Origin: Brucella pseudogrignonensis
GTDB lineage: Bacteria > Pseudomonadota > Alphaproteobacteria > Rhizobiales > Rhizobiaceae
Direction: 5' to 3'
DNA length: 64,000 bases
NCBI RefSeq assembly: GCF_002252525.1
Contig: NZ_NNRM01000041.1
Location: forward strand, 124,001-188,000
The first letter of the stretch is position 1, and the number at the start of each line of letters is the position of its first letter. The notes below the pieces were generated by a model, which was not told where the DNA came from, searched no databases, and saw only the letters and a list, made by a program, of their open reading frames with translations. Position numbers and translations under genes: made by a program. This document shows, piece by piece, positions 1,872 to 13,606 of this stretch.

Positions 1872-3197
1872 ATGACACAGCTTTCCCGCTCTTCGCTATT
1901 TGGACTTGCCTTTGTTTGCCTCTCGGTTGGCTTCACCGGCACTTCGCTTGCGCAAAGCAAACTGCTGCAACTCACACCCGATACGGATGTCGAAGCGCAT
2001 GTCGCAAAGACAGATAGAGGCTATGTGATCGTGCAACCTGATGGTTCAGAGCTTGTGATGATCGATGCCGAGTGGGCTAAAAATTTTGAAGGTGAACCCA
2101 GCTTCACTGTCGCTGACTATAATTTTGACGGCTTTCCCGATGTCGCAATTGGCGCAACAACCAGCGACAGTACGGATACTGGCTTCGGCATCTTTCTCTA
2201 TGACGCTGACAGAAAATCCTACGCATCGCTTGATCTCCCGGAAGACTTCAACGATCGACTCAACTGCAGTGGATTGTGGAATGTCGAGCTGATTGAAAGC
2301 CAGAATGCCATCAAAAGCAGCTGCTATTTTGAGGGCGACGACGATAGGCGTGTCGATATCGTTCAGATTGATCCGGATGGTTCGCCTCATTTGCTGGAAC
2401 AATCGCGCGCGAAAGAAGAAGCTTGGCACTGGCCTTATATCGATAAACCAGCCCGCATGATAACCTATGATCGGGAAGGCAACGTCACGCTGGAAACAAT
2501 CGCTGCCCAGGATGACACCGAGAATAGCTGGACTGTTCCGGTCACCAAGCTGGAAATATATAGCAAACCCGATCCACAGACCCGCACGCCTGCTTATCTT
2601 CTGGAAGGCGAAACCGTCCGCATTTTGGCATTCAGTGGCGATTTCATGAAATTTGCTCGTGATGGCAGCGCCGGCATGTCTCAAGGCTGGATCTCGCTCA
2701 CGCAAGCCTATGATCTTGTTGCCCGATACGATACCGACGGCACCAAGCCACAAATGGCCTCTCTTGCCCTTTCCGACTATAAAGACACTGCGGAAAACCC
2801 TGACTACTATCGCAACCTATTCACGCTGACCGTGAAAAACACCGGCGATACGGATATGGAACTCACCAACGCAGAACTGTTTCTTGTGTTCAATGGCGAC
2901 AATGGCACACGCGTCGCGCACAAACTCTATGACATTTCAGGCCCAACGCTTAAGCCTGGCGAAAGCCATATGATCGACGATAATCCGATTGAGCAACGAG
3001 ACGGAAAATATGTGATTTACCATAGTGAAGACGGTCAGGATTCCTATCCGCTGTTTTTCCCGGCAGATCTGCCCGATGGCAAATACCGAGTCATCCCAAT
3101 CATAACAGATCCGGCCCTCAGCGGTTTTATCTATGGTGAGAACGAAATCGAACTTGAATATCCGCCGAAGCTCGATGCAAGTCTGATCAAGAATTAA
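1872..3197 (+). CDS. Secreted FG-GAP-like protein of unknown function
   Basis: The 441-residue product begins with a signal peptide (hydrophobic residues about 8-26, cleavage likely after SLA). Residues 82-90 read DYNFDGFPD, a calcium-binding-like FG-GAP/DxDxDG loop followed by VAIGA, as in XAC2610-type proteins. Residues about 225-285 (KLEIYSKPDPQ... LLEGETVRIL... GWISL) look like a bacterial SH3 domain. The C-terminal third is beta-rich and resembles an Ig-like or CARDB fold. The product is probably periplasmic or cell-surface. No enzyme motif is seen. Its last four bases (TTAA) overlap the convergent flavoprotein gene, so the two stop codons are interleaved. Function unknown. Confidence 0.8.
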   Translation: MTQLSRSSLFGLAFVCLSVGFTGTSLAQSKLLQLTPDTDVEAHVAKTDRGYVIVQPDGSELVMIDAEWAKNFEGEPSFTVADYNFDGFPDVAIGATTSDSTDTGFGIFLYDADRKSYASLDLPEDFNDRLNCSGLWNVELIESQNAIKSSCYFEGDDDRRVDIVQIDPDGSPHLLEQSRAKEEAWHWPYIDKPARMITYDREGNVTLETIAAQDDTENSWTVPVTKLEIYSKPDPQTRTPAYLLEGETVRILAFSGDFMKFARDGSAGMSQGWISLTQAYDLVARYDTDGTKPQMASLALSDYKDTAENPDYYRNLFTLTVKNTGDTDMELTNAELFLVFNGDNGTRVAHKLYDISGPTLKPGESHMIDDNPIEQRDGKYVIYHSEDGQDSYPLFFPADLPDGKYRVIPIITDPALSGFIYGENEIELEYPPKLDASLIKN

Positions 3198-4372
3198 GCG
3201 ACCTGCCCAGCACTCCAGCCGGACGACCATGCCCATTGGAAATTGTAGCCGCCAAGCCAGCCGGTGACATCGACCACTTCGCCTATGAAATAGAGGCCGG
3301 GAACGTTCTTTGCTTCCATCGTCTTGGAATCGAGATCACGCGTATCAACGCCGCCCAACGTGACCTCAGCCGTGCGGTAGCCTTCTGATCCAGCCGGTTT
3401 CACACGCCAGTCATTGACCGCAGCAGCGGCGCGGCGCAACGCGGCATCTGACAGGTCAGCGAGATTGCTCGCTGGAAAATCGGCGGCAATAAGCTGGGCC
3501 AACTTTTTGGGTATGAAATAGGAAAGTGCGGTTTGTAGAGCCTGCTTACCATTTTTGGACCGCTGTTCGCGCAGCGCTTCAAACAGATCGGTCTGCGGCA
3601 GCATGGAAATGACGATTTCATCCCCTTCCCGCCAGTAAGAGGAGATCTGCAGAATAGACGGGCCACTGATGCCGCGATGTGTGAACAGCATTGCCTCTGC
3701 AAAATTTGTCTTTTTGCATGAAACAACTGCATCAACGGCAACACCCGCAAGCGGCTTTAGCCGTTCGAGGAGATGCGGCTCAAATGTCAGAGGCACCAGA
3801 CCGGGACGTGTCTCGACCATACGAAGACCAAAGCGCGTGGCAATCTCATAGCCAAAGCCGGTCGCCCCCATCTTTGGGATCGACTTGCCACCGCTAGCAA
3901 TGACCAGCGATTTCGCTGAAACTGTGCCGCCCGAATGGCGAATAACAAAACCGCGCTCGGTCTTCTCGACATTCTCAACTGCTGTTTCCAGCTGCAAACG
4001 CGCACCGTAGCGATGCATCTCATCAAGCAACATATCAATAATCTGTGTTGCCGAACCATCGCAGAAAAGCTGCCCAAGCGTCTTTTCGTGATAGGCAATC
4101 CGATAGCGCTCAACGAGTTTGATGAAGTCGCGCTGGGTATAGCGGCTCAGTGCGGAAATACAGAAGTGTTTGTTCTGCGATAGAAAATTCTTTGGGCTTG
4201 CATGGATATTGGTGAAGTTGCAGCGACCCCCACCCGAAATACGGATTTTATCACCCGGCTTTTTCGCGTGATCCAGCACCAGCACTGAACGCCCGCGCTT
4301 CGCGGCTTCAATCGCGCACATCATGCCAGCAGCGCCAGCGCCTATTACCAAAACATCGACGCTCTGCAACAT
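3194..4372 (-). CDS. NAD(P)/FAD-dependent oxidoreductase, BaiN/HI0933 family
   Basis: This is a 392-residue cytosolic flavoprotein. The N-terminus has the dinucleotide-binding GAGAAG (residues 11-16), followed by GDKIRISGGGRCNFTN, the signature of the HI0933-like/BaiN family. The C-terminal FAD motif LYFIGEVVDVTGWLGGYNFQ is intact. Family members are often annotated as TIGR00275 flavoproteins or tricarballylate-dehydrogenase-like. The physiological substrate is generally unknown, and nothing nearby assigns one. Length is typical (about 390). It converges with the secreted-protein gene with a 4-bp overlap at the stops. Confidence 0.85.
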   Translation of the reverse strand: MLQSVDVLVIGAGAAGMMCAIEAAKRGRSVLVLDHAKKPGDKIRISGGGRCNFTNIHASPKNFLSQNKHFCISALSRYTQRDFIKLVERYRIAYHEKTLGQLFCDGSATQIIDMLLDEMHRYGARLQLETAVENVEKTERGFVIRHSGGTVSAKSLVIASGGKSIPKMGATGFGYEIATRFGLRMVETRPGLVPLTFEPHLLERLKPLAGVAVDAVVSCKKTNFAEAMLFTHRGISGPSILQISSYWREGDEIVISMLPQTDLFEALREQRSKNGKQALQTALSYFIPKKLAQLIAADFPASNLADLSDAALRRAAAAVNDWRVKPAGSEGYRTAEVTLGGVDTRDLDSKTMEAKNVPGLYFIGEVVDVTGWLGGYNFQWAWSSGWSAGQVA

Positions 4373-4507: not shown

Positions 4508-6199
4508 TTGAAAGCTTCGGTCTCTTCAATACCGGATAACCAATCTGGAAGATCCCGTTTTATAAGCGGCCCGATCTTCTGGATGGTGCTCATTCTTGCC
4601 TTGCTTGTCGTCCTTTTGGTCCTGCCGCTAGTTGTGCCAATCGGCCCAATGTATTGGGACACCTATATCTATCTCGATGCAGCGCAGCGGATAGACACCG
4701 GACAAATACCGTCGGTTGATTTCTTCACCCCTGCAGGGCCACTCGGGTACTATCTGTTCGCCTGGGGACTGAACGTGTTTTCCTACGCGCAGCCAATGCT
4801 GCTCGCGCAATGGTCGACACTCATAGTCGCAGCACCATTAATGGCTGTCGTTCTTGCCGATGTTGACCGTCAAAGCCGATCCACCGCTTTCGCATTGCTG
4901 ATCCCGTTTCTGATTTTCGCCATCTCTCCGGCAAACGCTCAGTTTGAAACATCTTTTCCCGGTCTCGACGGTTTCGGCATTTATAATCGACAAGTGTGTC
5001 TGCTGCTTTATGTGCTGGTCGCCGGGCTTATTTTCATCCCCAACGGCAGAAAGCTTGCACTGTTATGTGCCGCGACGATGCTTTGTCTTTTCCTGACAAA
5101 GATCACTGGTTTTCTCGTTGGAGGGCTCTTCGGATTTACAGCTCTGCTTGCCGGGCGGATCTCAGTAATTAATGCTCTGATCGCCATTGTTGCAGCCCTC
5201 GTGGTGCTCGCCGGACTGGAACTCAATGGCCATATGATATCCGCCTATCTCGCAGATATCGGCCAATTGCTTGTGCTAAACGAAGCAGCGTTGCTGCCAC
5301 GCTTTCTCACAGTCATATCCGGCAAGCTTGATGTTATTCTGCCAGCAGGCGTTCTGGTTCTTGTGCTGTTCTTGCTCGAAACACGCCACAACATTACGCA
5401 AACCCGCTTGTTTGATCGCGGCTCAGTTTGGCTCGCAATCACAATTACCGGCGGGGTTTTTGTCGAAACACAAAACACGGGCAGTCAGGAATTCATTTTT
5501 CTGTGGCCAGTTCTGCTGATGATCTGGCAACGCATCAAGCCGTTGAGCGACAATAAAATCAAGATGACTGTGCTGATCCTTACAGCCTTCATCGCGGTCC
5601 CCACGGTAAGCAAGGTTGGGCATAAGGTGTTGCGCGCAATTGCTGTCGCTCCAACCTATGTTCAGCCGCCCGTTACCGAGCTGAAAAACATGGCTCAGGT
5701 TTCAACCAGAGCCGATATGATGGAGCGGGCGAAACTCCTGCCGCAGCATTATGCGGATTATTCTGCACCTTATGAGGCACTGGCACAGCAAGGACAACTG
5801 CCAAGCTGGCGGCTTTATTCCGAGCTCGACTATCAGATTTACTGGCTTATCTCGGTTGATGAAGCGGTCAAGGCGCTCAAAAAATTCGAGAAAGAAAACA
5901 GCATCCAGTTAAAAGCGCTGATGACACTCGACTTCACCGATCCGTTTCCGTGGCTCCTCAACCGAGAAGCCACCCGGAAAATCCAGATCGGTGCCGACCC
6001 TTTCCGCACTGTCGGGGCAATGACACCGGAGACAAAGGTCGCAGTTGAAGCAACGGATGGCATCTTGCAGCCTAAGTGCCCAATGACAACATCCCGTCTA
6101 GCCTTGCAGAAAATCTATGCCGATGCACTCAAAGATCGCGATGTGGTTGCGCTCGACCCTTGCTGGGATTTACTGCTACGCCCCGGCATTCTTAAATAA
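4508..6199 (+). CDS. Polytopic membrane protein, GT-C (PMT/ArnT-like) glycosyltransferase candidate
   Basis: The product has 563 residues with about ten or more hydrophobic segments and a soluble C-terminal part of about 180 residues. After TM1 comes an extracytoplasmic loop, MYWDTYIYLDAAQRI then GQIPSVDFFTPAGPLGYYL. This matches the GT-C pattern in which an acidic residue in the first loop binds a polyprenyl-phosphate-sugar donor (PMT, GT39 and ArnT relatives). I infer that it transfers a lipid-linked sugar to an envelope acceptor. It converges on the operon at 6232-11846, which appears to make such a donor, and shares a terminator with it. The start is a TTG after a purine-rich stretch; the next in-frame ATG is at 4583. 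Acceptor unknown. Confidence 0.65.
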   Translation: MKASVSSIPDNQSGRSRFISGPIFWMVLILALLVVLLVLPLVVPIGPMYWDTYIYLDAAQRIDTGQIPSVDFFTPAGPLGYYLFAWGLNVFSYAQPMLLAQWSTLIVAAPLMAVVLADVDRQSRSTAFALLIPFLIFAISPANAQFETSFPGLDGFGIYNRQVCLLLYVLVAGLIFIPNGRKLALLCAATMLCLFLTKITGFLVGGLFGFTALLAGRISVINALIAIVAALVVLAGLELNGHMISAYLADIGQLLVLNEAALLPRFLTVISGKLDVILPAGVLVLVLFLLETRHNITQTRLFDRGSVWLAITITGGVFVETQNTGSQEFIFLWPVLLMIWQRIKPLSDNKIKMTVLILTAFIAVPTVSKVGHKVLRAIAVAPTYVQPPVTELKNMAQVSTRADMMERAKLLPQHYADYSAPYEALAQQGQLPSWRLYSELDYQIYWLISVDEAVKALKKFEKENSIQLKALMTLDFTDPFPWLLNREATRKIQIGADPFRTVGAMTPETKVAVEATDGILQPKCPMTTSRLALQKIYADALKDRDVVALDPCWDLLLRPGILK

Positions 6200-6206
6200 T
6201 AAAATA

Positions 6207-6229
6207 GCCGGGATTTACCCGGCTTTTTT
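6207..6229. terminator. Bidirectional intrinsic terminator
   Basis: Stem GCCGGG/CCCGGC with loop ATTTA is followed by six T on the plus strand and preceded by an A-rich run. It serves the GT-C gene and the convergent aminotransferase operon. Confidence 0.85.
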
Positions 6230-6231
6230 CT

Positions 6232-7656
6232 TTACTTGATCTGCGCTTTTACGAAGTCCTTGACGATGCCAACAATGCCGCGTCCAAGAATTTCATCAAG
6301 CGCTGTGATGAACTCATCCACATGCGCGCGTCCACAAATCAGTGGTGGCTCAAGGCGGATCACGTTGCGATTATACTCGGTGAAAGCCACCAGTACGCCG
6401 TGATCACGCAGCAGATGACTGCCGATAAAGCCCGGCAACGAGCCTTTCAGCTTGTCATCAAGCATAGCCAGCACAGGGCGAAGTACCATTGGCATTGCGT
6501 TGGAGAAGTCATGGAACTCCAGCCCAACCATCATGCCCTTGCCGCGCACTTCCTTGATGAGTTTAGGATAACGTGTGTGCAGCTCATTCAGACGCTCCAG
6601 CAGATAATCGCCGGTTTCCGCCGAGTTATCGATGAGATGCTCGTCGTAAAGCACGTTGATCGTCTCGATCGAGGTGATGCAGGCTTCACCAATGCCGCCG
6701 AAAGTCGCCATTGCATGGATCATCGCCGTCTTCGGCGTACCATAGGCTTTCATATAGACGTCGCGCTTGGCAATCATCGCGGCCATAGCCGTCTTGCCGC
6801 CACCGAGCGACTTGGCAAGGGCAGTAACATCCGGAATGACGCCGTAATGCTCAAAGGCATAGAACTTTCCGGTACGGCCAAAGCCGCACTGCACTTCGTC
6901 AGCGACCCAAATCACACCATACTGATCACAGAGCTGGCGCAGCTTTTGCCAGAATGCGGTATCGGCCTGAATGATGCCGCCGCCGCCCTGAACGGTTTCA
7001 AGCACGATGACGCCAATTTCAGGGTCCGAGCGGAACGCATTTTCGATTGACTCAATATCGCCGAACGGTACGCGCACCGTATTGTCGACCAGCTTGAACT
7101 CACCACGATAAAGCCCGCCATCGGTGATCGACAGCACACCCTTGGTTTTGCCGTGGAAAGAATTTTCGGCATAGACGATCTTCGGCTTCTTCGGCCCTGC
7201 AGCACGTTCTGCGACCTTGATCGCAGCTTCCATAGCTTCCGAGCCGGACGAGCCCAAGAACACCATATCAAGATCGCCCGGCGAGCAGGCTGCAATGTCA
7301 TAGGCAAGGGCCGCCGCATATTGCGACATGAAAGCGATGGCGATTTCGTGCCGCATTTCTTCCTGAAACTTGCGGCGGGCTTCCAGAATACGCGGATGAT
7401 TGTGCCCCAGTGCCAGAGACCCGAAGCCACCGAAGAAATCGAGAATCTTGCGACCATTCTGATCGTAATAATACATGCCTTCGGCACGCTCGATTTTAAC
7501 CTTGTGAAAGCCAAGCAGCTTCATGAAATGAAGCTGTCCCGGATTAAGGTGTCCAGTGAAAAGCTCCGTCATGCGTGGCAGGTCAAGCGCCTTGGCGTCT
7601 TCAACCGTCAGAAGCTTCGGCTTAGGCGTGGTATTCGTTATAACTTTATTGGTCAT
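6232..7656 (-). CDS. Class III (fold type I) PLP aminotransferase
   Basis: This is a 474-residue PLP-dependent aminotransferase of the ornithine/GABA/putrescine class III group. Seen in sequence: SSGSEAMEAA (PLP phosphate binding, about 136-145), DEVQCGFGRTG (253-263) with the cofactor-ring Asp253, and ALAKSLGGG with the Schiff-base Lys282. It is the last gene of a five-gene operon, 9 bp after the SDR gene. Class III enzymes usually transaminate aldehydes or terminal keto groups. In this operon it could aminate the keto-sugar made by the DprE1-like oxidase or an aldehyde made by the SDR. That role is inferred from context only. Confidence 0.85.
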   Translation of the reverse strand: MTNKVITNTTPKPKLLTVEDAKALDLPRMTELFTGHLNPGQLHFMKLLGFHKVKIERAEGMYYYDQNGRKILDFFGGFGSLALGHNHPRILEARRKFQEEMRHEIAIAFMSQYAAALAYDIAACSPGDLDMVFLGSSGSEAMEAAIKVAERAAGPKKPKIVYAENSFHGKTKGVLSITDGGLYRGEFKLVDNTVRVPFGDIESIENAFRSDPEIGVIVLETVQGGGGIIQADTAFWQKLRQLCDQYGVIWVADEVQCGFGRTGKFYAFEHYGVIPDVTALAKSLGGGKTAMAAMIAKRDVYMKAYGTPKTAMIHAMATFGGIGEACITSIETINVLYDEHLIDNSAETGDYLLERLNELHTRYPKLIKEVRGKGMMVGLEFHDFSNAMPMVLRPVLAMLDDKLKGSLPGFIGSHLLRDHGVLVAFTEYNRNVIRLEPPLICGRAHVDEFITALDEILGRGIVGIVKDFVKAQIK

Positions 7657-7665
7657 GGCCTGTCC

Positions 7666-8649
7666 TCACGCTGCCTTCGATGCAAGCTTTTTGTGATATT
7701 CGCTATAGGCTGCAATCAGCATGTCTTCATCGCGATATTGCGGCACCCAGCCCAGTTCCCGCTCGCCTTTCGACACATCGAGAACGCACATTTCGTCAGC
7801 AATCAGATATTGCTCCGGGTCCATCAAAGGCTTGTTGAGCCAGTCGAGGAAATCCAGCGTGCGCTTGACCGCCCAGGCTGGTGTCGGCACCAGAATGGAT
7901 TTCGAGCCTGCGTGCTTGACCAGATCGCCGAGCAATTTGCGCACCGGCGGCGGATTGAGCGAGCCTAGATTATAAACCTCGTTCGGCACGCCTGCCTTGA
8001 AAGCGGCATAGCAAGCAGACGCACAGTCGAACACGGAAATGAACTGATAAGGATTTTTGCCAGAGCCGATCATCGGCACCGGCAGGTTGTTATCGATCAG
8101 CTTGAACAGCTTTTCCAGAATGCCAAGGCGTCCGGGTCCGATAATCAGGCGCGGACGGAACAGCGAAATGTTCATCCCTTTCTTGCGCCATTCTGCTGCC
8201 AATTCCTCGGTCTTTAGCTTCGACAGGCCATATTCGCCCAGCGGATTGCATGGGTGGTCTTCCTTCTGCGGCCAGACATAGGTGTGGCCATAAACCATGT
8301 CGGTGGTGAAATGCACGAGACGCTTTGCACCAGCCTCGTCCATCGCCTTGATAATGTTTTCCGTACCGTAATAGTTGACCGGAAAGAAGAAATCGTGACG
8401 CTTGGCCCGCACTTGAAGCGGAGAAAGCATTTTGGCCGAGAGATTATAGACCATATCGTCGGCGCGAAGCCCAAGCTTGCGGATTGCTTCCGGGTCGGTC
8501 ACATCCGTATGCACGAAAGTCGCTTGCGCATAATGCGCGAGATCGCTTTTCACGATGTCTGCGACGATCACTTCATGCCCGTCAGCGAGAAGCATGGGAG
8601 CCAGATAACGCCCCACAAAGCCATCGCCACCGAAAATAATATGTCTCAT
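7666..8649 (-). CDS. NAD-dependent epimerase/dehydratase (extended SDR)
   Basis: This is a 327-residue extended short-chain dehydrogenase. It has the nucleotide-binding GGDGFVG (7-13), catalytic TTD (115-117) and Y140xxxK144 (YGLSK), and the SDR C-terminal NLGS region. Such enzymes act on nucleotide sugars (epimerase, dehydratase, reductase). DprE2, the usual partner of DprE1, is a shorter classical SDR of about 250 residues, so this is not a simple DprE2. It is third from the start of nothing else but this pathway operon: it lies between the SMR and aminotransferase genes (22-bp and 9-bp gaps). The substrate may be a lipid-linked or nucleotide-linked sugar; this is unproven. Confidence 0.82.
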   Translation of the reverse strand: MRHIIFGGDGFVGRYLAPMLLADGHEVIVADIVKSDLAHYAQATFVHTDVTDPEAIRKLGLRADDMVYNLSAKMLSPLQVRAKRHDFFFPVNYYGTENIIKAMDEAGAKRLVHFTTDMVYGHTYVWPQKEDHPCNPLGEYGLSKLKTEELAAEWRKKGMNISLFRPRLIIGPGRLGILEKLFKLIDNNLPVPMIGSGKNPYQFISVFDCASACYAAFKAGVPNEVYNLGSLNPPPVRKLLGDLVKHAGSKSILVPTPAWAVKRTLDFLDWLNKPLMDPEQYLIADEMCVLDVSKGERELGWVPQYRDEDMLIAAYSEYHKKLASKAA

Positions 8650-8670
8650 AATCCTGCCCCAACCTTAAAT

Positions 8671-9090
8671 TTATGATGCTGAACGGTCTTGAACCGCCAC
8701 GTTCTGTTCGGCATCCGGCGTCTTGCCGCTCTGCGCGATCAGCACTGTTCCAATGCAAATGAAGGCGATGCCCGCAATCTTATAGGCGCCCAGTTCTTCC
8801 TTGAACAAAAGCCACGCAAAGACTGCGACGGCGACATAGGCAAGGCTCAGAAAAGGATAAGCAAAAGACAAATCGACTTTTGAGAGCACATACATGTGTG
8901 ATGCCATGGAAATCACGAACATGGTCAAACCAGCGAAAACCCACGGATTAAAGACAATCTGAAAGATCCGGTAAATCAACGTATCCGCTGTATAGCTGGC
9001 ATTACTGAACGTCATCATGCCATATTTGAGCAGCAGCTGTGCTGCTGCATTGGTCATGACCGTGAAGAGAATGAATGGGATATATTTCAT
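8671..9090 (-). CDS. Small multidrug-resistance/EamA-type protein, ArnE-like flippase candidate
   Basis: This is a 139-residue, four-TM inner-membrane protein. The segment VDLSFAYPFLSLAYVAV (72-88), followed by FKEEL, matches the conserved core seen in ArnE/ArnF (LPLS-AYP-LSL), the SMR subunits that flip undecaprenyl-phosphate-aminoarabinose. About 20 polar residues follow the last TM. Its place between a DprE1-like oxidase and an SDR suggests it flips the polyprenyl-phosphate-sugar made by the operon. A drug-efflux SMR role is less likely because EmrE-type proteins are about 110 residues and have a TM1 glutamate that I do not see here (TM1 is FILFTVMTNAAAQLLL). Confidence 0.75.
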   Translation of the reverse strand: MKYIPFILFTVMTNAAAQLLLKYGMMTFSNASYTADTLIYRIFQIVFNPWVFAGLTMFVISMASHMYVLSKVDLSFAYPFLSLAYVAVAVFAWLLFKEELGAYKIAGIAFICIGTVLIAQSGKTPDAEQNVAVQDRSAS

Positions 9091-9105
9091 CGTCTGTCCC
9101 GTGGT

Positions 9106-10410
9106 TTAATTTTTTAATGCGGTACGCCGCCAGAAATCGGAGCAGAACCGCGCATCGCGCATGTCTTCAAGCTGCTGCCACTCTGGAAAGCCTGCCTTGA
9201 ATGTTTCAGCACTCATGCGCTGATCCTTGTATGGATTAACGCGCCCGCCTGCCTCAACGGTCATTTTGTCAAGCTGGTCCAGTAGATCAAGCGTCTTGCG
9301 CCCGCGATTGGGAAAATCCATCGTAAGCGTATAACCGGGCTTTGGAAATGACAGCAGCCCCGGAGAATGCAGATCGCCGAAGCGCTTGAGAACTGTCAGG
9401 AAAGAGGACTGTCCGGCATCACGACTTGCTGCCAGCATTGCCGGGATTGTCTTCTCAGCCGCCTCAAAAGGTATGACGCTCTGATGCTGATATAGCCCGG
9501 CTGGGCCGTAAAAGCGGTTCCAATTGCGCAAACCATCCAGCGGATAGAAGAAGCCCGCAAAGCCTGTCAGATGCGGCTCCTGCTTGCGGCGTTTTGCATG
9601 AAAATAGAGTTCGTTGAATGCCGTCAGGCTCAGCTTATTGAGCATCGAAAATGGCAGATCGAACGGGACACCGAGCCGCGCTTCACCACTGTTCACGCTA
9701 CGGTTGCCATTAATCGCGTGATGCCCGGTCATCAAGACACCGCGCCCTTCCGAGCGACCAGTTGCCAGTTGATCCACCCAGGCCACTGCATATTCATTGT
9801 CGCGGTCGGCTTCTTCCGCAATCGCGAAATACTCAGACAGGCTTTTAAACGGCGTGATGCGTTCTTCTACATCCAGCGACCCAACCGGCATCAGACGGAT
9901 ACGAGCATTGAGGATAAGCCCTGTCAGACCCATACCACCAATCGTTGCCGCGAAGAGCTCGGCGTTTTCAGCGCTTGAGCAAATGTAATGCACACCATCA
10001 GAACGAAGTAGCTCCAGGCTCTCAACGTGGCTTCCAAATGTTCCGCGCAAGTGGTGGTTTTTGCCGTGCACGTCATTGGCGATTGCGCCGCCAAGCGTCA
10101 CAAAACGCGTACCGGGCGTTACCGGCAGAAAATAGCCGTATTTGGCAACGGTCTGGATAATGTCACTTAACAGCACGCCGGATTCTGCCTCCAGAATTCC
10201 GGTATGCGGGTCAAAACTGACAATGCGATTGTGCGTGCGCATCGGCACAAGCAAACCCGCGCCATTATGGCAGCTGTCGCCATAAGACCGTCCATTGCCA
10301 AAAGCGAGCAGACTTTCTGGACCTTCCAGTTTGGAGAACACATCGTCAAACGCAATCGCGTTGCGCTTGTCGCGATAGATGCGTCCAAAGCTGTCGAAAG
10401 ACTGTTCCAT
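9106..10410 (-). CDS. FAD-linked oxidase, DprE1-like (decaprenylphosphoryl-ribose 2'-oxidase family)
   Basis: This is a 434-residue VAO/PCMH-type flavoenzyme. GNGRSYGDSCHNG (38-50), VTPGTRFVTLGGAI (97-110) and HGKNHH (115-120) match the FAD-binding signature of mycobacterial DprE1. The C-terminus also matches, with YKDQRMSAETF (394-404) and a SDFWRR ending. DprE1 oxidises the 2'-OH of decaprenylphosphoryl-ribose. At the position of the benzothiazinone-target Cys387 of the mycobacterial enzyme (from memory, in a PGWNICVDFP context), this protein has Thr363 (PGYTLTMDFP). The start codon overlaps the UbiA-HAD stop by one base (TAATG), indicating translational coupling. Confidence 0.85.
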   Translation of the reverse strand: MEQSFDSFGRIYRDKRNAIAFDDVFSKLEGPESLLAFGNGRSYGDSCHNGAGLLVPMRTHNRIVSFDPHTGILEAESGVLLSDIIQTVAKYGYFLPVTPGTRFVTLGGAIANDVHGKNHHLRGTFGSHVESLELLRSDGVHYICSSAENAELFAATIGGMGLTGLILNARIRLMPVGSLDVEERITPFKSLSEYFAIAEEADRDNEYAVAWVDQLATGRSEGRGVLMTGHHAINGNRSVNSGEARLGVPFDLPFSMLNKLSLTAFNELYFHAKRRKQEPHLTGFAGFFYPLDGLRNWNRFYGPAGLYQHQSVIPFEAAEKTIPAMLAASRDAGQSSFLTVLKRFGDLHSPGLLSFPKPGYTLTMDFPNRGRKTLDLLDQLDKMTVEAGGRVNPYKDQRMSAETFKAGFPEWQQLEDMRDARFCSDFWRRTALKN

Positions 10411-11846
10411 TACCGCATCCCGGCTACAAACAGCAGGACTGCGCCAATGGCGATCACTACCTGACTGCGCCAGTCATTGGCGAGAAATACAACAGGATCG
10501 TCGTCCATTTCCTTGCGATGCGCCAAAATCCACACGCGGATGATGATATAGAGCACGATCGGAACAAGCGGCCAGATAAGCCATGGATAAGTGTATAGCT
10601 GCTGGACTGCGGAACTGTTGATATAAAGCGCCAAAACCACGACGGCCGTAAAGCCGGAGGCCACGCCACTTTGCCCGACAATATCAATATCCTCAGGGCG
10701 ATAACCGCGGCCAGCAATGCGGTCTTTTTCCGTCGCCGTTGAGTTTTGTAGCTCGACATAGCGTTTGACCAGCGCAAGTGAAAGAAAGAAGAACATGGCG
10801 AATGCCATCAGCCAAAATGACTGAGGAATATCTGTCGCCGTTGTCCCCCCCAATAGTCGCAGCGTATAAAGCGCAGCAAGGCAGATTACATCGACCAGCA
10901 ACATCCGCTTGAGCGCTAATGAGTAAGCAGTCGTTGCGATCAGGTAAAGGCCTATGACCAGTGCAAACTCAGGCGGCAAGAAAAAGCATGTCGCAGCTGC
11001 TATCAACAGCAGCAAAGCCGAAACCTTAAGCCCAAACGGGATACTGAGCGTCCCGCTAGCAAAGGGGCGTAATTTCTTACGAGCGTGCTGACGGTCTAGC
11101 GGCAGATCAATGATATCATTGAGAATATAGATCGCAGAGGCCGCAGCGGAAAATGCGGTGAAAGCCAGAATCGACGACAGCAATACATCTGGGTAAAAGA
11201 TTGTATGGGCAAGGATTGCGGGCACAAACACCAGCAGGTTCTTTAGCCACTGATGAACACGCAACATTTTCAGATAGGGTTTGATACCCCTGGAATTATT
11301 TTCAAACAGCCGGCTGCCATTGGCTTTCTGAAAGCGCGAGGCTGCGCGGTCGGGAGCCACGACAACCGCCTCACGCGCTGCCGCAAAGACTGCGAGATCC
11401 GCGCGGTCGTTGCCGGCGTAGTCAAAGCCTTTCGGACCATAGTTCTCGTTCAGCGCCTTTGCCTTACGATGCGATGACAGGTTGGTCTTCCCGCTCGTCG
11501 CAAGCACTGCTTCGAAAATGCCGAGTTCCACCGCCACCGCTTGGGCAAGAGGTTCTGCTGCAGCTGTCGCCAGAACGAGCCTGCGGCCACGCATATGCTC
11601 CTGACGTAGATAATCCAGAAAATCCTGACGATAAGGCAGTAACCCCGCATCCATGGAAATGCGGCTCGCAATCTGCTGCTTCAAGTTGGCCTTGCCAGAC
11701 AGCAACCAGATTGGAAACAAAAACAGAAACAAAGGGTTCCGCTTCAAAAGAATGAAAGCGCTTTCCCATAGAAGATCTGTCGCGACCAGTGTTCCGTCGA
11801 GGTCTACGGCCAAAGGCACTTCCTGGCTTTTTAGCCGCTCATCCAT
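10410..11846 (-). CDS. UbiA-type phosphoribosyl/prenyl transferase fused to N-terminal HAD phosphatase
   Basis: This 478-residue fusion has an N-terminal HAD hydrolase domain with DLDGT (15-19), a motif II Thr/Ser near LATAA (92-96) and motif IV-like GNDRADLAV (145-153). From about residue 190 there is a polytopic UbiA domain with NDIIDLPLDRQH (243-254) then RPFASG. That NDxxDxxxDxxH form is typical of decaprenyl-phosphate phosphoribosyltransferase (DPPR synthase), not menaquinone or ubiquinone enzymes. The predicted two-step activity transfers phosphoribose from PRPP to polyprenyl phosphate and then removes the 5-phosphate. It is the first gene of the operon. NoeC-type proteins for Nod-factor arabinosylation share this architecture, from memory. 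Confidence 0.82.
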   Translation of the reverse strand: MDERLKSQEVPLAVDLDGTLVATDLLWESAFILLKRNPLFLFLFPIWLLSGKANLKQQIASRISMDAGLLPYRQDFLDYLRQEHMRGRRLVLATAAAEPLAQAVAVELGIFEAVLATSGKTNLSSHRKAKALNENYGPKGFDYAGNDRADLAVFAAAREAVVVAPDRAASRFQKANGSRLFENNSRGIKPYLKMLRVHQWLKNLLVFVPAILAHTIFYPDVLLSSILAFTAFSAAASAIYILNDIIDLPLDRQHARKKLRPFASGTLSIPFGLKVSALLLLIAAATCFFLPPEFALVIGLYLIATTAYSLALKRMLLVDVICLAALYTLRLLGGTTATDIPQSFWLMAFAMFFFLSLALVKRYVELQNSTATEKDRIAGRGYRPEDIDIVGQSGVASGFTAVVVLALYINSSAVQQLYTYPWLIWPLVPIVLYIIIRVWILAHRKEMDDDPVVFLANDWRSQVVIAIGAVLLFVAGMR

Positions 11847-12142
11847 TTTTAGTCATTATCCTCAAACCCGCCCCGGCAACTCTCGTCAGCCAAGCCCCCT
11901 TGGCAACGAATAAAACGAGAGCACAAATGAACAATGATTAGTCTTCGCTACAATCGATAATTGTTATTCATGGGCTTGTCTCTACCAAACTGCCCTTTAA
12001 GCAATCGCTACGAGTTTTGGTTAATAAACACGTCATCCTACATAATTGCTGGTCTAACTTGTCATCGCGTAATATAAGGCATCGATTAATTTCCGTTATG
12101 ATCTGCGCTCATTGCACGGACGCCTCAGGTTTAGAGCCGACT
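11847..12142. other. Intergenic region between divergent transcription units
   Basis: These 296 bp separate the lipid-sugar operon (minus) from the diguanylate cyclase (plus) and must hold both promoters. The stretch is AT-rich around 11930-12090. I see no strong palindrome and no convincing -35/-10 pair. An in-frame upstream extension of the cyclase to 12017 is possible but has no family support. Confidence 0.5.
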
Positions 12143-13606
12143 ATGAATATTGAATCTGCCTTGAATGACGGTGCCAGTGTCTTTGAGTTGGCGCCAATTT
12201 CCCTGTGGCTTGAGGACTATAGCGGATTGCGAGCGCAGTTCGAGCAATGGCGCAAACTCGGCGTTACAGATTTCAGAGCGTTTCTTTACGAAGACACGAC
12301 CCGCTTGCGCATCTGCACAAGTCTCATCCGTGTTCTAAAGGTCAATCGAAAAACCCTGTCGCTTTACGAAGCACGCGATGTCAATCACCTGATCGGAAAT
12401 CTGGAGCGTGTTTTCCGTGACGATATGCTCGATCCGCATATCGAAGAAATGGTTCAGCTCTGGAATGGCGACAATGCCTTCACCAGCGATACAGTGAATT
12501 ATTCACTCAGCGGTAAACGTCTCGACATCCAGCTGAAAGGCGTGGTTCTGCCGGGCCATGAGGATAGCTGGGACCGGGTACTGCTTTCGATAGAAGATGT
12601 AACGGCACGCGAAGAAGCACGACGCGAGCAATATAAACACAAGCAACACGCTGAAGGTCTGTTCGAACATTCACCCGTCTCGCTTTGGGTTGAGGATTTC
12701 AGCCGTATCAAACAGCTGATGAACGACATTCGCGAACGCGGTATTGTCGATTTCCGCGTTTTCACCGATGTCCATCCGGAGTTTGTGCGTCAATGCATGA
12801 GTGAAATCCGGGTTCTGGATATTAATAGGGAAACACTGGATCTGTTTCTCGCACCCGACAAACAAACCCTGCTCAAAAATCTGCCTAACGTCTTCAAAGA
12901 CGATATGGAGACAAATTTCCGCGAGCAGCTGATCGATCTCTGGAATGGCGTATATTTTCAGCGCCGCGAAGTGGTCAACTATGCGCTTGATGGCACCGAG
13001 CGCCACCTCTTGCTGCAGTTCTCGGTGCTACCCGGCCACGAAGACGATTGGTCGCTGGTTCAGGTTGCGCTCGCCGATATTACGGCGCGCAAAAAGGCCG
13101 AAGCCTATCTCGAATATCTCGGCAAGCATGATGTGCTGACCAAGCTGCATAACCGCGCATTCTATGTTGATGAATTGAACCGACTTGAGCGCAAGGGCCA
13201 TACGCCCGTTTCCATCATCATTATCGATCTCAACGGTTTGAAAGCAGCCAATGATCAGTTGGGCCATGCCAGCGGCGACGGCTTGCTTCGGCGCATCGGA
13301 GAAGTGCTTAATGAAGCTGTGAACCTGCCCGGCCATGCTGCCCGTATCGGCGGCGACGAATTCGCAGTTGTGCTGCCTTATGTGGATGAGCGCGGTGCAG
13401 ATGCGGTCATGGAAGACATCCGCCGGCTGGTCGACATCAACAATCAGTATTATTCGCAGCTCAAAATTGAGCTTTCGATGGGCGCCGCTACCAGTATGCA
13501 AGGCGAAAAACTGGAAACTGTTGCGAAGCGGGCTGACCTGCTGATGTATGAAGACAAGCGCAAGCACTATTCGGCAGAAGCACTTCGGAAGTCACAGCTC
13601 TCTTAG
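12143..13606 (+). CDS. Diguanylate cyclase with tandem duplicated PAS-like sensor
   Basis: The 487-residue product probably makes cyclic di-GMP from GTP. Two similar sensor units of about 160 residues follow each other. The first begins FELAPISLWLEDYS (residue 14) and the second FEHSPVSLWVEDFS (residue 174); each continues through a V(L/N)DIN..TL, WNG, NY.L.G and LPGHED core. A GGDEF domain follows, with intact RIGGDEF (G403-F407). No RxxD inhibitory site lies five residues upstream, so product inhibition may be absent. There are no TM segments, so the protein is cytosolic. The chosen start is ATG 12143; ATGs at 12098 and upstream are alternatives. The TAG stop runs straight into a dispersed repeat. 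Confidence 0.85.
   Translation: MNIESALNDGASVFELAPISLWLEDYSGLRAQFEQWRKLGVTDFRAFLYEDTTRLRICTSLIRVLKVNRKTLSLYEARDVNHLIGNLERVFRDDMLDPHIEEMVQLWNGDNAFTSDTVNYSLSGKRLDIQLKGVVLPGHEDSWDRVLLSIEDVTAREEARREQYKHKQHAEGLFEHSPVSLWVEDFSRIKQLMNDIRERGIVDFRVFTDVHPEFVRQCMSEIRVLDINRETLDLFLAPDKQTLLKNLPNVFKDDMETNFREQLIDLWNGVYFQRREVVNYALDGTERHLLLQFSVLPGHEDDWSLVQVALADITARKKAEAYLEYLGKHDVLTKLHNRAFYVDELNRLERKGHTPVSIIIIDLNGLKAANDQLGHASGDGLLRRIGEVLNEAVNLPGHAARIGGDEFAVVLPYVDERGADAVMEDIRRLVDINNQYYSQLKIELSMGAATSMQGEKLETVAKRADLLMYEDKRKHYSAEALRKSQLS

Follow-up and report, generated by a model that had tools for sequence, protein, structure and literature searches.

Which sugar is built by the gene cluster that the window, a 64,000-nucleotide stretch of the Brucella pseudogrignonensis genome (contig NZ_NNRM01000041.1, positions 124,001 to 188,000), carries around its DprE1-like gene? 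The cluster comprises an operon of five minus-strand genes (11846-6232), transcribed in the order UBI, DPRE, SMR, SDR and AMT and separated by intergenic gaps of -1, 15, 21 and 9 bp. Their predicted products are a HAD-UbiA fusion protein, a DprE1-like oxidase, a putative flippase, an extended SDR and a class III aminotransferase, respectively. On the opposite, plus strand, GTC, encoding a GT-C-like protein, converges on the operon with a gap of 32 bp. The tight arrangement of these families, recognized already in the first-pass annotation, was confirmed. On the basis of sequence comparisons we propose, with a probability of about 55%, that the operon makes a polyprenyl-phosphate-linked 2-amino-2-deoxypentofuranose.

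The evidence that carries this reading is the distribution of AMT and of genes encoding DprE2-like reductases, analyzed in two genome samples, each including that of the window (G000; 5.53 Mb). Among 60 relatives (E≤1e-50 for DPRE, 1e-90 for AMT and 1e-30 for DprE2-like genes), DPRE was present in 28; AMT was found in 24 and a DprE2-like gene in the other four (G013, G016, G045 and G054), the two sets summing exactly to 28. In these four genomes, two of which belong to the genus of the window, the DprE2-like gene adjoins DPRE. Among 398 genomes of the phylum (AMT threshold E≤1e-110), 53 carried DPRE and seven AMT, all of the latter within the 53. The 52 DPRE neighbourhoods besides that of the window comprise 45 with a DprE2-like gene beside DPRE, six with AMT and one (G106) with neither there. 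When the samples are combined (one shared genome counted once), 30 of the 80 DPRE-bearing genomes have AMT and 50 have a DprE2-like gene; none with both or neither was found, AMT having been searched for throughout each of the 80 genomes and DprE2 across the whole genome in 26 of the 30 with AMT. G000 itself gave no DprE2-like match at E≤1e-30; of its 58 candidates, all of which were scored, the best reached 61 bits (34%). AMT orthologs without DPRE were found neither in the 398 phylum genomes nor in the 60 relatives. As shown by this comparison of gene content, the predicted aminotransferase occupies the slot of DprE2, and the exchange of the two genes is a comparison-based result.

Two genomes look like swaps of the two genes. 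The first, L076, is an 11 kb contig of a metagenome-assembled genome (MAG) filed under Methyloprofundus, in which genes for an LPG-synthase-TM protein, UBI, DPRE, AMT and a PMT-like GT-C protein follow one another. Its AMT shares 64-66% identity with rhizobial AMTs. An SDR ortholog (E≤1e-20) is missing from the genome, and so is a DprE2-like gene, the best match being 45 bits (27%). Its DPRE groups with reductase-type sequences (100/96 support), and a topology uniting all AMT rows was rejected (approximately unbiased test, p 0.015); its UBI falls into the starred set consisting of itself and 23 reductase-type rows. In G106, conversely, DPRE falls within the AMT clade; the genome has no AMT ortholog (best matches of 32-34% identity) and carries, away from DPRE, a DprE2-like gene (42%, E 1e-51). 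This looks like the reverse of the L076 swap. Mutual substitution of AMT and DprE2 in two lineages is expected if both enzymes use the same intermediate, the 2-keto sugar, and AMT probably consumes this product of the DprE1-type oxidase.

The same two genomes bear on the idea that the lipid-linked pentose is neutral, with SDR performing the reduction instead of DprE2 and AMT modifying the acceptor or a nucleotide sugar of the same glycan. SDR has an oxidoreductase fold, its orthologs (E≤1e-45) are present in eight of the 398 phylum genomes, namely all seven with AMT and G106, each time with the locus, and class III aminotransferases accept many substrates. However, the L076 genome keeps AMT with neither an SDR ortholog nor a DprE2-like gene, G106 has SDR yet still carries a DprE2-like gene, and AMT was found apart from DPRE in neither genome sample, so we regard a neutral pentose as improbable. 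SDR as a substitute for DprE2 was itself rejected, given SDR together with a DprE2-like gene in G106 and AMT without SDR in L076.

The first enzyme of the operon connects it with phosphoribose chemistry. UBI matches PRK08238 (654 bits, cut-off 351) and the solved phosphoribosyltransferase of Mycobacterium tuberculosis, 8j8j (E 6e-28); it contains the motif NDxxDxxxDxxH at residues 243-254 (NDIIDLPLDRQH) and DxD at residues 15-17 (DLDGT). It thus has the sequence features of a polyprenyl-phosphoribose synthase, i.e. a UbiA domain with NDxxDxxxD and a phosphoribose phosphatase. According to parts of the article by Kelly et al. 2024 (PMC11127046), a HAD-UbiA protein makes polyprenyl-phosphate-linked ribofuranose (Ribf) from phosphoribosyl pyrophosphate (PRPP). 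From its homology to ORF15 of Citrobacter youngae, described there, UBI is predicted to be a polyprenyl-phosphate phosphoribosyltransferase and 5'-phosphatase. Among the 398 phylum genomes, five of the 48 that carry UBI have it without DPRE.

Ribose and an aminotransferase also meet in the hopanoid aminotriol route, in which a ribosyl intermediate is aminated by an aminotransferase, and SDR has a similarity to HpnA (64 bits, far below the cut-off of 368). The motif and PDB match of UBI point instead to phosphoribosyltransferases, and synthesis of a hopanoid side chain by this operon seems barely credible. No squalene-hopene cyclase (TIGR01507) was found in G000, G331 or G448, which refutes aminotriol synthesis for the genome of the window as assembled.

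The assignment of DPRE is based on a match of residues 30-429 of 434 to solved DprE1 chains (E about 1e-72); against the DprE1 equivalog it scored 342 bits, under the cut-off of 500, and it is a DprE1-type oxidase in the sense of a homolog. Together with the 8j8j match of UBI, these comparisons support the earlier suggestion of DprE1-type chemistry on polyprenyl-phosphate ribose. Residues H115, K117, Q308, Q310 and K395 are conserved; these and T363 we take to be the active-site positions, by analogy with M. tuberculosis DprE1. T363 aligns with the reactive active-site cysteine of that enzyme (C387), whose place is taken by Thr in all 74 AMT-type rows and by Ala in 51 of the 53 rows of the reductase type. 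Covalent inhibitors of the benzothiazinone type should therefore not act here.

Five DPRE columns discriminate the 74 AMT-type from the 53 reductase-type rows: L306, S311, T363, N392 and Y394 occur in at least 90% of the former, and F, C, A, Y and A, respectively, in at least 80% of the latter. All five lie at or within three residues of an active-site position, whereas this holds for 17 of the 87 shared columns of equal conservation (Fisher p 0.0005, under a definition set after the fact). The DPRE sequences of G106 and L067 have AMT-type pocket residues, and that of L076 is reductase-type at four of five positions; the changed pocket therefore tracks the SDR-bearing clade rather than AMT. 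In our reading, SDR acts upstream of DPRE, handing over a different pentose, and AMT acts downstream of it, although common descent alone could also produce the pattern. The DPRE gene of G001 is in pieces with stops (G001:C2:1483329-1484616); this assembly is 85% complete and sequencing errors are possible.

The difference in pocket residues between the AMT and DprE2 types would also suit a pathway in which nitrogen is placed on another carbon, DPRE or SDR producing a C3 ketone or a C5 aldehyde that AMT converts to a 3-amino or 5-amino pentofuranose. The nearest PDB relatives of AMT, which has K282 as the presumed PLP lysine as well as D253 and R434, are PigE and putrescine aminotransferase. 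Both of these class III enzymes act on aldehydes, while BioA, of the same class, uses a ketone. Against another carbon speaks the position of AMT, which is that of DprE2; moreover, a standard 2-keto substrate is simplest in L076, because its DPRE pocket is reductase-type at four of five positions and its genome has no SDR ortholog. We therefore consider amination at C3 or C5 rather unlikely. The only plasmid with an AMT match (E≤1e-120) among 72,556 is a 1.17 Mb Neorhizobium replicon (NZ_CP025513.1:875338-876735, 86% identity). The AMT gene of G006 contains one stop (G006:C2:251922-253322), possibly a sequencing error, in an assembly that is 69% complete.

Several points weigh against a 2-amino sugar. 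The counts of the partition are phylogenetically non-independent, the DprE2 search in G114, G181, G229 and G331 covered only the 14-18 kb surrounding the locus, and only the best 46 DprE2 candidates were scored in several AMT genomes. L076, a contig from a MAG, is the sole case of its kind, and a search of 150 further genomes of its order turned up no AMT. G106, which lacks AMT, retains SDR and SMR, and its DPRE pocket is of the AMT type. The aldehyde-acting nearest relatives of AMT would fit a C5 aldehyde as well, and the remodelled rhizobial DPRE pocket could mean oxidation of another carbon or substrate. An aminopentofuranose for these bacteria was not found among the open-access literature matches listed.

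Sequence comparison established which genes are present, how far they are conserved and that AMT and DprE2 are exchanged; beyond this, we infer the chemical steps, the aminated carbon, flipping and transfer as follows. DPRE would oxidize C2 of the lipid-linked pentose to a ketone, and AMT would transaminate this ketone, which the mycobacterial pathway and its DprE2-bearing bacterial relatives reduce to arabinose. SDR, in the rhizobial form, may alter another centre; our guess is epimerization at C3 before DPRE, like that by ORF13 in Citrobacter. SMR would then flip the product, and a GT-C enzyme (here GTC) would transfer it to an envelope acceptor on the outside. More tentatively, at a little below even odds, we suggest a general lipid-carrier route to amino sugars: many Hyphomicrobiales would make a 2-aminopentofuranose donor, gained elsewhere by exchange of DprE2 for AMT, with SDR acting first in rhizobia and the DprE1 pocket remodelled to its product.

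Of the proteins assigned to these outer steps, SMR has four transmembrane-like segments and resembles ArnE and ArnF under both equivalog cut-offs (54 vs 99 and 38 vs 92 bits); it is a predicted, candidate flippase. SDR contains the motifs GGDGFVG, T116 and Y140xxxK144, with T116, Y140 and K144 conserved, and its nearest PDB entries are epimerases and a 4,6-dehydratase. The structural model of GTC has a GT-C fold with ArnT as its best PDB match, and GTC is predicted from this model to be a transferase using a lipid-linked sugar. It matched no Pfam family at E 0.001 (one chance-level match, E 0.58), and no GT136 entry was named among its structure matches, which is evidence neither way. Comparison thus supports the flippase candidate, the GT-C transferase and a probable aminopentose suggested in the first-pass annotation. 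Of the Arn-like export proposed there, the likeness of SMR and the ArnT match stand, but only as similarities of fold or below cut-off. Lipopolysaccharide (LPS) as the acceptor received no support from any result obtained.

Table 1. Genes of the operon and the converging gene, with positions in the window.
Gene and product	Positions	Strand	Basis
UBI, HAD phosphatase-UbiA fusion, 478 aa	10410..11846	-	PRK08238, 8j8j, motifs
DPRE, DprE1-like FAD oxidase, 434 aa	9106..10410	-	solved DprE1 chains, conserved residues
SMR, EamA/ArnE/F-like, 139 aa, predicted flippase	8671..9090	-	profile matches, TM-like (transmembrane-like) segments
SDR, extended SDR, 327 aa, epimerase-like	7666..8649	-	motifs, PDB matches
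AMT, class III PLP (pyridoxal phosphate) aminotransferase, 474 aa	6232..7656	-	profile and PDB matches, conserved residues
GTC, membrane protein of GT-C fold, 563 aa from the listed TTG start, predicted transferase	4508..6199	+	fold

Conservation of the gene set was analyzed in the best 80 of at least 590 DPRE-bearing contig stretches (588 relatives), a sample picked by likeness to the window and hence biased. By tblastn, UBI, SMR, SDR and AMT are all present in 68 of these 80 DPRE loci. The other 12 are L076 (UBI and AMT only), eight loci with a DprE2-like gene (seven of them with UBI), L067 and L090 (UBI and DPRE only) and L081 (DPRE alone). The order UBI-DPRE-SMR-SDR-AMT is retained in nearly all Hyphomicrobiales loci; in Bosea and Hoeflea there are two modules, UBI-DPRE and SMR-SDR-AMT, which are divergent or apart. 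Co-occurrence of all six genes, proposed earlier as a check, therefore held for the five-gene set but not for GTC, which lies on the plus strand within three genes of AMT in 29 of the 73 called AMT loci. In Mesorhizobium another GT-C-like gene takes its place, and some AMT loci have neither. Genes of the loci were called by a codon-scored caller, which missed DPRE in L054 and a GTC match in L017 (both shown by tblastn); single-linkage clusters tag a 492-aa open reading frame near AMT in L019 as ‘E2’, with no tblastn support.

Several loci show variations around UBI. The Bosea-type UbiA proteins (L074, L077, L082, L089 and L133; 291-316 aa) lack the HAD part, and the phosphatase must be supplied from elsewhere. 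A protein of approximately 88 aa with a signal-peptide-like start is encoded upstream of UBI in many loci of Mesorhizobium and Phyllobacterium type (L018:8116-8379 and corresponding positions in 36 loci). G258 has UBI without DPRE and, approximately 3 kb away, a distant SDR relative (L195:1790-2731; 31%, 157 bits), which is a candidate epimerase of the Citrobacter kind. In G187 (L198:6525-8710; assembly 75% complete) a DprE2-like gene directly follows UBI and no DPRE was found. Records filed as Acidobacteriota and Chloroflexota (L084 and L087) likewise contain UBI-DPRE-DprE2-like loci, whole or in part. The locus of the window is flanked by genes for a GGDEF protein with a weak PAS match (12017-13606) and a HI0933-like flavoprotein (3194-4372), with no visible link to the pathway.

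The known pathway to PRPP-derived pentofuranoses has no nucleotide-sugar stage, and any amination would therefore have to take place on the lipid. We know of no described case of such amination. If the proposal is true, an amino sugar joins the known or proposed outcomes of polyprenyl-phosphoribose, i.e. Ribf, xylofuranose (Xylf) and arabinofuranose (Araf), and the presence of a DprE1 homolog would not by itself point to arabinan. It would constitute an unrecorded route to a surface sugar and explain a conserved, undescribed operon of symbiotic and soil bacteria, and the gene swap would become a direct chemical test (m/z 435 vs 434). Among the open-access matches listed, literature searches returned no description of this gene set and nothing relevant on aminopentoses in rhizobial LPS or on lipid-linked 2-aminopentoses. 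A term search of Phyllobacterium and Mesorhizobium lipid A papers (PMC5644692, PMC4103559) did not return pentose, arabinose, ribose or xylose, which has little bearing on core, O-antigen or proteins; one passage mentions an ‘unidentified amino sugar’ in lipid A (PMC4103559).

Compared with known systems, the operon resembles the Arn pathway for 4-amino-4-deoxy-L-arabinose in that SMR is similar to ArnF/ArnE, the GTC model best matches ArnT and an aminopentose would be exported on a lipid. In contrast to Arn, the sugar would come from PRPP rather than UDP-glucuronic acid, and a lipid-linked furanose would be aminated by a class III rather than an ArnB-type enzyme. With the mycobacterial decaprenyl-phosphoryl-arabinose pathway (Rv3806c, Rv3807c, DprE1, DprE2, Rv3789 and Emb/Aft, as listed in part of PMC11127046) it shares a phosphoribosyltransferase, a DprE1 homolog, an SMR-type exporter and GT-C transferases, but DprE2 is absent and AMT present instead, the phosphatase is fused as a HAD domain and there is an extra SDR.

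The closest likeness is to the three-component pentofuranose system of C. youngae O1/O2 (ORF15, ORF14 and ORF12, with the epimerase ORF13), as described in parts of PMC11127046, where a GT-C enzyme and a candidate flippase of the MATE type complement the HAD-UbiA protein, ORF13 turns Ribf into Xylf, and DprE1/E2 homologs appear in candidate systems for Araf glycans. Domain order and motifs of the HAD-UbiA protein are alike, and both systems have a flippase candidate, a GT-C transferase (predicted for the window) and an SDR, which in O2 is an epimerase working on the lipid-linked pentose. The prototype needs no DprE1, its flippase candidate is of the MATE type rather than SMR, and its transferase is GT136; GTC is a GT-C protein by fold. 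The main text of that article nowhere mentions an aminotransferase. The novelty claimed in the first-pass annotation accordingly narrows: the exact combination is undescribed among the open-access matches listed, but its core (HAD-UbiA protein, flippase and GT-C enzyme) is already known from C. youngae. On its predicted functions, the operon is a variant of the Citrobacter-type system, and what is new about this variant is that an aminotransferase stands where DprE2 would.

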